From positions 1-43,686 of the forward strand of contig VYFB01000083.1 in the NCBI GenBank assembly GCA_009842645.1: 43,686 nucleotides of DNA. The letters run 5' to 3'. Source of the stretch: Nitrospira sp. SB0677_bin_15. Its GTDB lineage: Bacteria > Nitrospirota > Nitrospiria > Nitrospirales > UBA8639. Every line of letters begins with the position of its first letter. Positions within the stretch are counted from its first letter, which is position 1. Both the position numbers and the translations under genes were made by a program. Shown one piece after another: positions 16,156 through 23,728 of this stretch. Below the pieces are notes generated by a model that was not told where the DNA came from, ran no database searches, and was given only the letters and a program-made list of their open reading frames with translations.

Positions 16156-17076
16156 TTAGAAGTGTCCCTGCTGCAGCACCTTATCGGTTTCCGGTGCTTT
16201 GTCGTCAATGGCTTTCTGAATTTTGTCAAGCATGCGCTGAAATACATCTACGGCGTACTTTGATTTCTCTAGGAATTCGATATACTCGTCTCTGAGGATT
16301 TGCCTTTCTTTTGCATTTCTGTATTCTTGACGGATGTTCGACGAAATCCGCTTTGCTTTTCTGATGATCAAAACGTCGTCAATATATGTCGATGTGATGG
16401 AAACCGGCGTCATGTCGAGGAACTCGCATACGAGAAAATAAAGGGAAGACGGAATTGCGATCTTCAGGTTGCGGCTTGTGGCAACAGCCTCTTGGAACAT
16501 GGTCTTGTCGAGATTTGTCTTACATTCTGCGCATATATAGCCCAAGTGTGTCTTTATGTCTTCAGCATCATGAAATTCGTGGTCGAATGATGTTTTGATA
16601 TACAAGCGTTTCCCAAGGATGAAGTCCTGATCTTTGGTCATGAGACGAGGACAACCTGCGATCCCAGGATTTGCAATCGACGATGCAAAATTCAACCCAG
16701 TGAACGTCTTGCGCGGCCCCATCTCGAAATGATTTTTAGGCCATCTCAATCCCCGATAGAGCAAATGAGGAAGAAATTCCTCAATGATTGTATTGTCGAG
16801 CTTTAACTGACCTTTCTGTCGGTAGAGAAAATCATTCGGGCTGTTGAAAATCAACTCCAGCTCAATATATGTTTTATATCGATCTGCAGCTTCTACCAGC
16901 CTTTGAACCGAGTCTTTTTGCCCCCTTTTCACGTTTTCAAGTTCACTGATCCAGTTATGATAGTGCCGAATTGCTTCTTCGACTCTAGGTTTGTCGCCTT
17001 GGGGGAGGCGTTTGTTGGCACGGAGTGCTTCAAGTTTATCCAAATGCGGTGTCGATAACTCTAAATCGGCATTCAT
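16156..17076 (-). CDS. Type II restriction endonuclease, Bpu10I-like family
   Basis: A 306-residue protein resembling the RE_Bpu10I family, from memory of blocks such as NDFLYRQKGQLKLDN, ECKTNLDKTMFQEA and KAKRISSNIR. A PD-(D/E)xK nuclease site is plausible: KDQDF (148-152) with ECK (184-186). The ATG overlaps the methyltransferase stop in ATGA, the usual order of modification gene first. Upstream in-frame codons to 17136 overlap the methyltransferase and lack support. Base composition is visibly more AT-rich than valS and nadC, consistent with horizontal acquisition. Target sequence is unknown; a lone subunit would more easily cut a symmetric site than the asymmetric CCTNAGC of Bpu10I. Confidence 0.75.
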   Translation of the reverse strand: MNADLELSTPHLDKLEALRANKRLPQGDKPRVEEAIRHYHNWISELENVKRGQKDSVQRLVEAADRYKTYIELELIFNSPNDFLYRQKGQLKLDNTIIEEFLPHLLYRGLRWPKNHFEMGPRKTFTGLNFASSIANPGIAGCPRLMTKDQDFILGKRLYIKTSFDHEFHDAEDIKTHLGYICAECKTNLDKTMFQEAVATSRNLKIAIPSSLYFLVCEFLDMTPVSITSTYIDDVLIIRKAKRISSNIRQEYRNAKERQILRDEYIEFLEKSKYAVDVFQRMLDKIQKAIDDKAPETDKVLQQGHF

Positions 17077-18314
17077 GTTGGTTTTCCCTCTTTTACCATC
17101 ATTACACCATCTCTTGTCTGATATTGGGGGTAGCAAGAGCTGTTAAAAATCGGTGTGCCGGTAACCTGATCGATACGAGAAATTGCATCGAGAAGCAGGG
17201 TTTTATTTTCATCGGGGGCGTTTCCCACGGCTGCATTCAGCAAGCATCGAGCCGCGTCGCGTCCGAGGACTGTAGGCAAGTTGTTATCGTCTCTGTATTT
17301 TTCTCTTTCAAGATTTAGAACATCTTCCCTGATCATCTCGCCGTAGCGGTTTTTGAAGATTCTTTGTTGGCGGAGGATAAGACGGAACATTTTCGACTCG
17401 CAAGCAAGTTGTTCGACAATCCTGGCATTGAAAAATGGTGTGCCTAACACCTGGGATTGATGCCCAAGGATCAGCACGGCACGTCCACCTGTCCTTAGAA
17501 CTCTGGCTAATTCTTGGATCACGCTTCCCATATCAATGCAGTATTGAATCACGGTATAAAATCGGTTGCCTCGATTGGCACGATTGGAACCGATTTCGGA
17601 ACGAGCCACGCGAAGCAGATTCCAGCCCAGTACTTCGACCGAACGTCTGTAGTTCTGATGATAATTGAACACGTTGAGATAGGGCGGAGACGTGACCGCA
17701 AAATCGATCGATTGTTCTTGAAGCGGGAGTGCCCTTGCATCTTCCAGATCCGCCTTGATCGGACGATTGGAATATGGAAGTTGACGAATCAACGAAATCA
17801 AGGTTAGGAATTTGCGTTGAATCAAATCGCAGGAGATTCGGTTCTTGTAGATGTCCAGGAGCACGACTAGGGAATTAAAAATGATTTTTGCCGAATCGCT
17901 GAGTGATTCCCCGATGCGGGTAACTATTTCTTTGAACTCGTCTTCTTTTAGCTCGATTTCTTCAGAAAAAAATGACGTTGGAAATTCATGATTGATCCTC
18001 TTTTGGAGTTCCATTATTGCCTCTTCTCTTTCTTCAGAAGACGCCATGGTAAATTCGTAAAGTTTGCTGAAGCTCCACGCAGATGGGTTAATCTCAAATC
18101 CAAACGCAGGAAGAGACAGGGTGGCGGCTTCGTAGAGAACTGTGCCGCTTCCGGCAAATGGATCAAGAACGACTGAGCCTGGCAAACAGTATGCTGTGAG
18201 CAAGGATTCAATAAGTTGCGGAGAGAATTGTCCTCGCCACGCAAAAAGATTAGATCGGGTTTTCTCTTGGATATTCAGAGATTCCTGGGGTATTGGTTTC
18301 GAGAAATCTTTCAA
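17073..18314 (-). CDS. DNA methyltransferase (amino-type, TSPPY), partner of the Bpu10I-like endonuclease
   Basis: A 413-residue SAM-dependent DNA methyltransferase. Motif I is DPFAGSGT (51-58), preceded by RGQFSPQLIESLL; the catalytic motif IV is TSPPY (208-212). TSPPY marks cytosine-N4 or adenine-N6 methylation, not 5-methylcytosine, whose PCQ motif is absent. The motif I before IV order differs from the beta-class orphan enzyme at 36321. The start is TTG 18314 with AAGGTG 4 nt upstream. It overlaps the endonuclease by 4 nt, forming a compact cassette inserted between valS and nadC on the same strand. It should protect the host site cut by the endonuclease. Confidence 0.88.
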   Translation of the reverse strand: MKDFSKPIPQESLNIQEKTRSNLFAWRGQFSPQLIESLLTAYCLPGSVVLDPFAGSGTVLYEAATLSLPAFGFEINPSAWSFSKLYEFTMASSEEREEAIMELQKRINHEFPTSFFSEEIELKEDEFKEIVTRIGESLSDSAKIIFNSLVVLLDIYKNRISCDLIQRKFLTLISLIRQLPYSNRPIKADLEDARALPLQEQSIDFAVTSPPYLNVFNYHQNYRRSVEVLGWNLLRVARSEIGSNRANRGNRFYTVIQYCIDMGSVIQELARVLRTGGRAVLILGHQSQVLGTPFFNARIVEQLACESKMFRLILRQQRIFKNRYGEMIREDVLNLEREKYRDDNNLPTVLGRDAARCLLNAAVGNAPDENKTLLLDAISRIDQVTGTPIFNSSCYPQYQTRDGVMMVKEGKPT

Positions 18315-21123: not shown

Positions 21124-21284
21124 AGAGATGAAACTCACGCTGACAGAGCGAAAAATCTTAGCATGGGGGGTAGCCCCTCGCAAGCAAAGCGCCGGGTGGC
21201 TGCTGTCTCAGTTTGAATTTTCCCGCCTTCAATTTCTTGGCTCATTCCATCCCAGAGTGTGGTAGTATTTTTTCTGACGTCACT

Positions 21285-21839
21285 ATGAAAATGAAACTAA
21301 CGGATCCATCGGGTAGAGGTAGCCTGTACAGTTCACCAAGGCCAGGGGTCGTCGGTGTATGGTTTTGCGGATGGACAGAGGCTAACTTTGTTAATGCAAC
21401 TGAGGCCTTGGAAGAAAAAAGACCTGGGGTAAACGAAGAGATCGTGGCTGAGGCGCATTATTTAGTTCTTTGGCTTCATAGGCTTCCTCAAATAGGTTTC
21501 TTCTGTGGGGTTATCTTTTTCAACTCTTTGTTGGCTGGACTCTTGTTATTTGGTGTGGCTTTTATTCTCGAGTATATGCGTTTCTATATGTTTGGGGCCT
21601 CGCTCCTTCTTTCTCAATTATCGAAAATTTGGGGCTATATAAAGGTTCCAGCGTTTATTGTTGCTGCGGTCAGCTTGTGGCCGCAGGGTATGTTTCTACC
21701 AATAGCTTTGGCTGTGTTTCTGGTAAGTTCTACTGTGTTAATGATGCCTATTAATGTTATTGCTAGTCGTATAGTACACACAATGTTTTCTGAGAAATTA
21801 GCAGCACAATATGGTGAAGATTGGTTCAAGATGACATGA
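21285..21839 (+). CDS. Small integral membrane protein, unknown function
   Basis: A 184-residue protein that I do not recognise. Residues 1-75 are polar. The rest has three to four hydrophobic segments (about 75-98, 100-120, 126-142 and 143-165), including FFCGVIFFNSLLAGLLLFG. The C-terminus (SEKLAAQYGEDWFKMT) is soluble. I chose ATG 21285; a TTG 72 nt upstream would add an unlikely leader. The codons are clearly more AT-rich than neighbouring valS, and it lies next to a frameshifted remnant and two nuclease-like genes, so it may belong to an acquired patch. Confidence 0.6.
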   Translation: MKMKLTDPSGRGSLYSSPRPGVVGVWFCGWTEANFVNATEALEEKRPGVNEEIVAEAHYLVLWLHRLPQIGFFCGVIFFNSLLAGLLLFGVAFILEYMRFYMFGASLLLSQLSKIWGYIKVPAFIVAAVSLWPQGMFLPIALAVFLVSSTVLMMPINVIASRIVHTMFSEKLAAQYGEDWFKMT

Positions 21840-21924
21840 TTAGCCATGGACTTTGTTATCCATCGCTGGAAATTAAAATTGGTCTCAATAGCTAAGATTT
21901 AGTCATCATGTAAAGGCCCCCCGT

Positions 21925-22140
21925 ATGCCAAAGGACCCACGGGACAGAAACGAATTGGTGACGTGATCGGGGTCGCGAGCAAGGTGGCGAAGATCGCCAG
22001 GGGTGAGGTTGAAGACGAAACCATGGCCGGGAAAGAATTGCACCGAAAGGGTGTCCTGATCGGCGGGAAACTCCGAGTCAAAAATCTGGCACCAGAACGC
22101 CGACGGAGCGGCTTAGGCGAGATGGAGACGTAAGAGCTGA
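21925..22140 (+). pseudogene. Frameshifted remnant of a small basic protein
   Basis: ATG 21925 reads MPKDPR and then runs out of frame. A single extra G in the CACGGGACAG stretch would continue as GQKRIGDVIGVASKVAKIAR, then GGKLRVKNLAPERR. Near the end another frame gives ARWRRKS and a stop at 22138. These pieces in order resemble a common small family (KRPADVIGNAVKVARIATGE, GGKARAKxLxPERR, ARW) that I know only as a hypothetical protein family. The gene therefore seems broken by at least two changes, or the assembly has homopolymer errors here. AAAGG lies about 10 nt before the ATG. Confidence 0.5.
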
Positions 22141-22267
22141 CCGAAGGTTGGTAGATTTCAGACGGGACAGTGGCCCCTTGACTCTGCATAGTGAGCTGCG
22201 TAAAATCCTTTTATTACCTCTACTCCTTTATGGGAGTACTTGTTACCGCATGACCGTAGGCGGTTTC

Positions 22268-22303
22268 GGCCCCCGTGCTTAGTGTACGGGGGCCTTTTTA
22301 TTT
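22268..22303 (+). terminator. Strong Rho-independent terminator upstream of the NYN gene
   Basis: GGCCCCCGT (22268-22276) pairs with ACGGGGGCC (22286-22294) and is followed by TTTTTATTTT. It would close transcription of the broken gene upstream. It lies only 22 nt before the NYN start, so it could also attenuate read-through into the NYN/GIY-YIG pair. Confidence 0.85.
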
Positions 22304-22325
22304 TCCCAACCGGAAGGCACACCTG

Positions 22326-22943
22326 ATGATAAGAATTGCAATCATGATTGATGGCGGGTATTTACGCGCAAATGTGGATTCTCAATACCGTTTCAATGTA
22401 GATTTTATTGAGGAAGTTGCGCTGCGGATGGTTGAGGCAGAAGAAGAGCTTCTTCGAGTGCTATTTTATGATTGTGACCCGTACAGAGGAAGTATACAGC
22501 TTCCGGTGTCCGGAAAAATGATGAAGTTAGAGCAACCTGGATGGCTCGATGCGTTGGCATCCAAAGAACTTTTTGCAGTCCGTCGCGGCGTCGTAAAATT
22601 TCGAGGCTTCAAACTAAAAGAGTCTCACAAAAAATTCGCAGGTCTATCCGAAAAGGATTTGAAGCCTGATTTGCTACAAAAAGGCGTTGATATGAGGCTT
22701 GGAATTGATATTGCAAACTTTTCAATAACCAAGGCAGTAGATAGAATTATCCTCGTCTCAAGGGATACAGACTGTGTGCCCGCAATGAAATATTGTCGGA
22801 TTGCAGGTCTTCAAGTTTATTTGGCTCAGTTCCCAGGCCAACTGCCTTTACCAGAATTGTCACATCATGCTGACGGATACCGGAAAATTCCGTTGTCTGA
22901 CATTACTAAGAAGTTTAAAGCCAAGTCCAGATCAACTCGCTAA
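22326..22943 (+). CDS. NYN-domain (PIN-like) putative ribonuclease
   Basis: A 205-residue protein with the NYN/LabA-like fold of the PIN superfamily, probably a metal-dependent RNase. The acidic residues expected for the site are visible: IMIDGGYLR (Asp9), GVDMRLGIDI (Asp122, Asp128), and LVSRDTDCVPA (Asp147, Asp149). ATG 22326 follows GGAAGG by 8 nt; an in-frame codon at 22275 lies in the terminator and is rejected. The GIY-YIG-like gene starts 11 nt after the stop with a perfect ribosome-binding site, so the two form an operon. AT-rich codons and the neighbours suggest an acquired cassette. NYN proteins occur in RNA turnover and in defence loci; the role here is unknown. Confidence 0.82.
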   Translation: MIRIAIMIDGGYLRANVDSQYRFNVDFIEEVALRMVEAEEELLRVLFYDCDPYRGSIQLPVSGKMMKLEQPGWLDALASKELFAVRRGVVKFRGFKLKESHKKFAGLSEKDLKPDLLQKGVDMRLGIDIANFSITKAVDRIILVSRDTDCVPAMKYCRIAGLQVYLAQFPGQLPLPELSHHADGYRKIPLSDITKKFKAKSRSTR

Positions 22944-22950
22944 GGAGGAA
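22944..22950 (+). promoter_or_regulatory. Strong Shine-Dalgarno for the GIY-YIG-like gene
   Basis: GGAGGAAGG-type sequence begins right after the NYN TAA and precedes ATG 22955, indicating efficient downstream translation within a two-gene transcript. Confidence 0.6.
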
Positions 22951-22954
22951 GGCG

Positions 22955-23401
22955 ATGACAAATCTCAAAGGCCGTAGTTATCCCGACCAGGCTCAAGGCA
23001 GCATACGTGATGATCTCCGTAGACTCCGTGAATTAAGACGAGTACCCTACAGGGTCGTCTGGTACACGTGCGGAGAACAGGGAAACTGGTGCCGGCTAGA
23101 CACCGTTAATCTCAGTCAGATTGATATGAAAGGGGTCTATATTATTTGGCATGGAGGGACGAATCCCAAAGTGGTTCGAGTTGGTCAAGGGGATATTCGT
23201 GACAGACTAACCCAACATAAATCCGATGATAGTATGCTTTATTACAAACGATTTGGGGTATTGATGGTGACTTGGGCCGAGGTTCCAAAACGGTATCGTG
23301 ATGGTATCGAAGTTTATCTAGAGAATATGTGCAACCCCCTTAGCAGACAACGAACCTTGCCGATTGCAGACCCTATTCGTGTCAATTACCCATGGGAATA
23401 G
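22955..23401 (+). CDS. GIY-YIG-like nuclease domain protein
   Basis: A 148-residue protein. The GIY-YIG pattern is visible as GVYII (60-64) and VRVGQG (74-79), followed by DIRDRLTQH with the expected arginine, and a glutamate in GIEVYLENMCNP (119 or 123). The N-terminal ~55 residues (WYTCGEQGNWCRLD) are extra and may bind a partner or nucleic acid. The second motif lacks a tyrosine (VRVG instead of YxG), so activity is uncertain. It is tightly downstream of the NYN gene. The pairing of an RNase-like and a GIY-YIG-like protein is the least familiar gene arrangement in the window. Confidence 0.68.
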   Translation: MTNLKGRSYPDQAQGSIRDDLRRLRELRRVPYRVVWYTCGEQGNWCRLDTVNLSQIDMKGVYIIWHGGTNPKVVRVGQGDIRDRLTQHKSDDSMLYYKRFGVLMVTWAEVPKRYRDGIEVYLENMCNPLSRQRTLPIADPIRVNYPWE

Positions 23402-23728
23402 AGCACGAACTTGCTTTTTCCTCATTGCACACCGTACCCGCAACCATACGTCGTTTTCTCCGAAGAAACGAGGCCCCGCCCAACGTAGTTTATAAATTTC
23501 TGTCTGCTGTCTGACAGTTACTCGTCTTCTGTCTATCCGTTCTGAATCTGGCATGGGTAAGAGGCAGGAACGTCTGCTTTCTCCACAGTTCCAAACCATA
23601 ATTGAAAATAATCTAATGCTCCCGGTTGTTTTCACGAGAACAAATATGATAGAACTCCCGAACGAATTACCTAGGGATTATACTGATTTATTGACAATCA
23701 CGGCCAAACAGGACCAGGAGACATTCTG
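23402..23728. other. 327-bp AT-rich spacer without visible gene
   Basis: The stretch contains no convincing ORF on either strand. TTGACA occurs near the end (23694-23699) but without a matching -10 box. A minus-strand open frame overlapping the GIY-YIG 3' end looks like a shadow. Confidence 0.5.

Follow-up and report, generated by a model that had tools for sequence, protein, structure and literature searches.

Two short open reading frames lie side by side in a 43,686-nucleotide stretch of a Nitrospira genome (the window, by which we mean the whole of this stretch), and the closeness with which the second follows the first raises the question of whether their products form a two-part system or whether the genes are neighbours by chance. 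The first gene encodes a PIN-like protein of the NYN family and the second a protein with a predicted GIY-YIG fold. A sequence-only reading had described them as a tight pair behind a strong terminator in an AT-rich accessory patch, and had proposed an uncharacterised defence or nucleic-acid surveillance module. The features of the pair are the following.

22268-22304, + strand: intrinsic terminator 5' of the NYN gene (stem at 22268-22294 of 11 bp, 9 of them G-C, followed by a T run)
22326-22943, + strand: NYN (PIN-like) gene, 205 amino acids, ATG start at 22326
22941-22954, + strand: Shine-Dalgarno sequence TAAGGAGG and the 11 nt intergenic gap, overlapping the NYN stop codon
22955-23401, + strand: GIY-YIG-fold gene, 148 amino acids, ATG start at 22955

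The layout was as described. The sequence TAAGGAGG is a perfect Shine-Dalgarno element for the second gene and runs over the NYN stop codon, 11 nt separate that stop from the next ATG, and the strong terminator stops about 22 nt short of the NYN start codon. Between 21.0 and 24.0 kb the G+C content is about 46-48%, compared with 55% in most of the window, which bears out the AT-rich character of the patch; its accessory status was likewise confirmed. In blastn comparisons, position 21198 is joined to position 23621 without a gap in seven of eight congeneric loci, from which the intervening DNA is absent. Because the two positions are directly joined in these seven congeners, we conclude that an insertion of about 2.4 kb took place next to the 5' end of valS. 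The edges of the insertion carry an imperfect short repeat (CCGGGTG and CCGGTTG). The insertion and the other cargo near valS comprise the following features.

21199-23620: precise accessory insertion of about 2.4 kb, with the 5' side of valS at one edge and a HAD hydrolase gene at the other
21213-21839: membrane-protein-like ORF in the insertion, 208 amino acids, with no Pfam or PADLOC match
21924 to about 22057-22140, + strand: frameshifted relic of a small conserved gene (PKGPTGQKRPGDVIG... and MPKGPTGQKRPGDVIG...) in the insertion
16156-18314: Bpu10I-type restriction endonuclease (PF09549, E = 1.5e-93) and DNA methylase

The frameshifted relic is about 80% identical to intact copies in congeners, whose ORFs are 75 and 80 amino acids long. 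The Bpu10I-type gene pair, on the 3' side of valS, was likewise inserted cleanly; of the eight congeners compared, one (G006) has it and seven lack it. At the point where the 2.4 kb insertion lies in the window, the eighth congener (G013) has other genes (L065 1552-3881) flanked by a 13 bp direct repeat, CGCCGGTTGTGTT, at the junctions, with no integrase gene among this cargo. The region beside valS is an accessory integration hotspot. No tRNA gene was found in the window and no Rfam RNA at the insertion. The patch has no integrase or transposase ORF either, and the earlier statement that no mobile-element gene explains the pair is thus correct for the patch itself; it does not carry over to the gene families, since relatives of each gene are found in phages.

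The first protein belongs to a recognised domain family. It matches Pfam PF01936 with an E-value of 4e-8 and 34.3 bits, above the curated cut-off of 24.2, and it matches nearly full length (E = 6e-31) the phage protein family PHROG_5783, whose listed function is unknown. An AlphaFold2 model built with 22 relatives has a mean pLDDT of 92 and adopts a PIN-like Rossmannoid fold. The best Foldseek match is 2qip (VPA0982), which gives a VIA-align Z of 14.5; the NYN domains of human and mouse MARF1 score higher, the better of the two at Z 15.3 (rmsd 2.8 over 145 residues) and the other at 15.2. The MARF1 and 2qip alignments span about 145-151 residues, and the next unrelated fold follows at Z 8.9. 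The NYN assignment made from the letters was therefore upheld. A PDB sequence search returned only chance matches to neuraminidases, and the PADLOC HEC-09 and NYN defence models matched weakly (E 0.001-0.002), with partial coverage of the NYN model.

Twenty-seven positions are invariant across the 22 relatives. Among them are the conserved acidic active-site residues D9, D122, D128, D147 and D149, all of which are kept in the window protein. This copy has S-R-D where the motif is S-G-D, at a position that also varies in other relatives (SND, TAD). Family membership, with the predicted fold and the conserved acidic residues, makes RNase activity likely.

Assignment of the second protein depended on structure prediction. 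It falls in no Pfam, NCBIfam, PADLOC or PHROG family; its best Pfam entry is DUF7508 (E = 0.096, under the cut-off of that family), there is no match to Pfam GIY-YIG, and a PDB sequence search gave no match. Its AlphaFold2 model (pLDDT 86) nevertheless places UvrC GIY-YIG domains at the top of a Foldseek search, with probability 1.00 and weak E-values (0.02), and all of the top eight matches are GIY-YIG domains. VIA-align scores are 8.4 and 8.1 for UvrC, 8.0 for T4 EndoII, 7.5 for I-TevI and 7.3 for R.Eco29kI, with an rmsd of 2.3 over 81 residues for the best UvrC alignment and 91 residues aligned for EndoII. The GIY-YIG call was thus supported by structural comparison, though no Pfam match accompanies it. 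The protein is a single domain with the family motif IIWHGG, and its first approximately 30 amino acids are poorly predicted and have no counterpart in relatives.

The predicted active site is partly canonical. The active site of R.Eco29kI consists of Y49, Y76, R104, H108, E142 and N154 (PMC1952068). In the window protein the tyrosine of the GIY half-motif, the arginine and the glutamate are present as Y62, R84 and E119, together with H88; the YIG tyrosine is replaced by R75 and the canonical C-terminal asparagine is absent. Two of six aligned relatives (L010 and L022) keep the YIG tyrosine, three others (L013, L020 and L021) also have arginine there, and the equivalent of E119 is valine in a relative from genome G156. 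R.Hpy188I, which is an active enzyme, has lysine at the YIG tyrosine and glutamine at the asparagine position (PMC2630997). Because R.Hpy188I departs from the canonical motif at both positions too, the fold assignment stands, and nuclease activity of the predicted domain is possible and not certain.

Relatives of this protein, 41-49% identical to it, come from a congener (G011), an alphaproteobacterial MAG, the genome G156 of the same phylum (two copies) and three phage contigs, and their genes are solitary. In one phage (L021) the gene lies between the terminase and portal genes, an interval of the kind that often holds free-standing endonucleases; in the other two (L020 and L022) it lies in early regions. 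The named phage and plasmid collections yielded no such relatives, and the phage copies matched no PHROG family. In two of the phage contigs a small conserved ORF converges on the 3' end of the GIY-like gene (L020 6203-6466 and L022 6212-6490; E = 1e-17 to each other). As a general partner of GIY-like genes this ORF was rejected, because its match in L013 is only marginal (E = 0.001) and none was seen next to the gene in the window.

If the two genes formed a system, adjacency should recur in independent genomes, and it did not. We scanned 167 loci with HMMs of both families; NYN relatives occurred in 131 and GIY-like ones in 18 (overlapping or repeated loci being counted), with both together only in the window's own loci. 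Absence of the pair from other genomes was what the sequence-only reading had named as refuting its proposal, and the two-gene defence or surveillance module is not supported by this survey. Outside the window, about 100 NYN relatives and eight GIY-like relatives, the latter a small sample, show no case of adjacency. Viral contigs with an NYN gene carry no GIY-like relative paired with it. Across 396 genomes of the phylum the NYN family occurs in 12 and the GIY-like family in five, three of these being close relatives, and only two genomes have both: the window's own (G000) and its congener G011, where they are split between contigs C2 and C65 and have other neighbours. The window's own genome has a second NYN copy (C17, 57% identity), which stands without a GIY-like partner, as do the other NYN copies of the genus. 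As the pair recurs in none of the other genomes or phages examined, we read the neighbourhood as chance and not as a two-part defence system. Within the genus, NYN genes occur in three of 14 genomes and GIY-like genes in two, and both GIY-like genomes are also NYN-positive (expected overlap 0.43; hypergeometric estimate, P about 0.03), which in a sample of 14 is a weak hint of association without adjacency.

Temperate phages carry the NYN family as a lone gene, often placed between repressor and integrase. In 59 dereplicated viral NYN loci with a downstream ORF, that ORF encodes an integrase or recombinase in 16 (13 tyrosine, three serine), and upstream ORFs most commonly encode Cro/CI-type HTH proteins, with some integrases, IrrE-like and S24 proteins. 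In the Escherichia lambdoid phage ev099 the NYN gene follows the repressor and precedes N, a slot that we take to be the rex position of lambda, and Proteus phage Brookers and Streptococcus phage Javan85 have it at the corresponding place in their immunity regions. NYN relatives thus sit in the part of a temperate phage genome that is expressed during lysogeny, whereas the window copy does not. Other members of the family are on conjugative plasmids, away from phage genes. In G006 the NYN gene is followed by a gene for PifA (E = 8e-106), a plasmid phage-exclusion protein, and in G011 a type III methyltransferase is two genes away.

Several further observations concern the surroundings of NYN genes. 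An NYN gene fragment in the window's genome (G000:C41:1975-2139, L005) has a type III DNA methyltransferase gene a few genes away. About 300 nt upstream of the NYN gene in both G011 and G006 is a HigA-like antitoxin gene with no evident toxin (L011 2758-3950 and L012 4494-5726), and a PIN-domain-like ORF is also upstream of the NYN gene in G006.

NYN genes are thus placed, within phages and beside defence genes, as lysogen-protecting or host-protecting genes typically are, and a single-gene anti-phage RNase is therefore the best reading of the family. More broadly, the NYN protein is most likely a single-gene, prophage-derived RNase with an anti-phage or lysogeny role, and the phage position together with the PifA and type III methyltransferase neighbours makes a defence-like role for this protein alone plausible. 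None of the papers searched names this NYN family as a defence gene or gives an exclusion phenotype for any member. We suggest that two unrelated accessory genes were caught side by side in the valS-adjacent hotspot and so came to form a chance two-gene transcription unit. The NYN protein, acting alone, would cut RNA upon infection by another phage, either as superinfection immunity or as an abortive response. The phage-derived GIY-YIG-fold protein would have a separate role, as a small DNA nuclease or nickase or as a DNA-binding relic; of these, a small nuclease or nickase unconnected with the NYN protein is likely. Taken whole, this account of chance neighbours, a lone NYN anti-phage RNase and an unrelated solitary GIY-YIG-fold gene seems to us fairly probable.

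The main rival to an anti-phage RNase is that the NYN family regulates lysogeny in temperate phages by processing phage mRNAs (repressor, integrase or antisense RNA), the chromosomal copy being a prophage leftover. The position between repressor and integrase, which recurs in phages of several bacterial phyla, speaks for such a regulator. Copies on conjugative plasmids and in chromosomal patches beside PifA or a type III methyltransferase nonetheless fit defence cargo better, and we consider the regulator somewhat unlikely as the explanation, while recognizing that regulatory and defence roles are not mutually exclusive.

It is less likely again that the two genes no longer have a function and are relics in decay. 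Decay is evident in the frameshifted gene of the same insertion and, elsewhere in the genome, in the NYN fragment on C41, and the change from SGD to SRD, the arginine at the YIG tyrosine and the missing catalytic asparagine could be taken as its marks. Both ORFs are intact, however, the second has a good Shine-Dalgarno sequence, and the invariant family residues are kept; moreover, the SGD position varies among relatives and the arginine recurs in three GIY-like relatives.

Against chance pairing, the 11 nt gap and the perfect Shine-Dalgarno sequence point towards co-expression, and a young pair could be maintained by selection. The genes might then be a young but genuine two-gene anti-phage system, in which the GIY-YIG protein nicks invader DNA and the NYN protein cuts RNA, both made from one co-translated message. 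The tight, terminator-bounded unit and its position in an accessory hotspot, with a Bpu10I-type restriction-modification insertion across valS, speak for this idea, which we nevertheless regard as improbable given that the adjacency was found nowhere else, that the G011 genes are on different contigs and that the other NYN copies of the genus lack the partner. Even more doubtful is a combination of the two views, in which the NYN protein would be an undescribed single-gene, prophage-borne anti-phage RNase, spread among the phages of many bacteria, plasmids and chromosomal defence patches, and in this lineage would recently have recruited the GIY-YIG-fold protein into a two-nuclease operon against invader RNA and DNA. 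A toxin-antitoxin pair was rejected as unsupported, the second protein being unlike antitoxins and the relatives being unpaired.

We therefore return to chance neighbours as the preferred explanation. The two genes are additional members of known folds within an accessory hotspot. The pair itself is probably a coincidence, and what makes the locus interesting is chiefly the uncharacterised phage NYN family, which is widespread, is kept by temperate phages where known exclusion genes sit and has no assigned function that we could find (PHROG_5783 being listed as unknown).

Phage NYN relatives resemble lambda RexAB, and the RexAB-type system reported in Pseudomonas putida (PMC12894663), in their position next to the repressor. 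RexAB consists of a DNA-binding protein and a membrane effector, whereas the NYN family has a nuclease-like domain. With the PHROG_5783 phage proteins the window protein shares a nearly full-length match and a lone-gene organisation, but its gene is chromosomal, adjoins valS and has no phage genes around it. To the MARF1 NYN domain and 2qip it is linked by its PF01936 score, Z values of about 15 and 14.5, and the conserved acidic residues. MARF1 carries OST-HTH/LOTUS domains, whereas the window protein is small and single, without partner domains; relative to PF01936 NYN structures it also has an insert with beta strands around residues 52-115, and SRD in place of SGD.

The GIY-YIG-fold protein shares with the N-terminal domain of UvrC, I-TevI, T4 EndoII, R.Eco29kI and R.Hpy188I the predicted fold, the GIY tyrosine, the helix arginine and the helix glutamate. 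It differs in having arginine for the YIG tyrosine (lysine in R.Hpy188I), in lacking the asparagine, and in being a small, stand-alone protein with the motif IIWHGG. As with R104 and H108 of R.Eco29kI, a histidine follows the helix arginine by four residues, and in its single-domain build the protein is similar to T4 EndoII.
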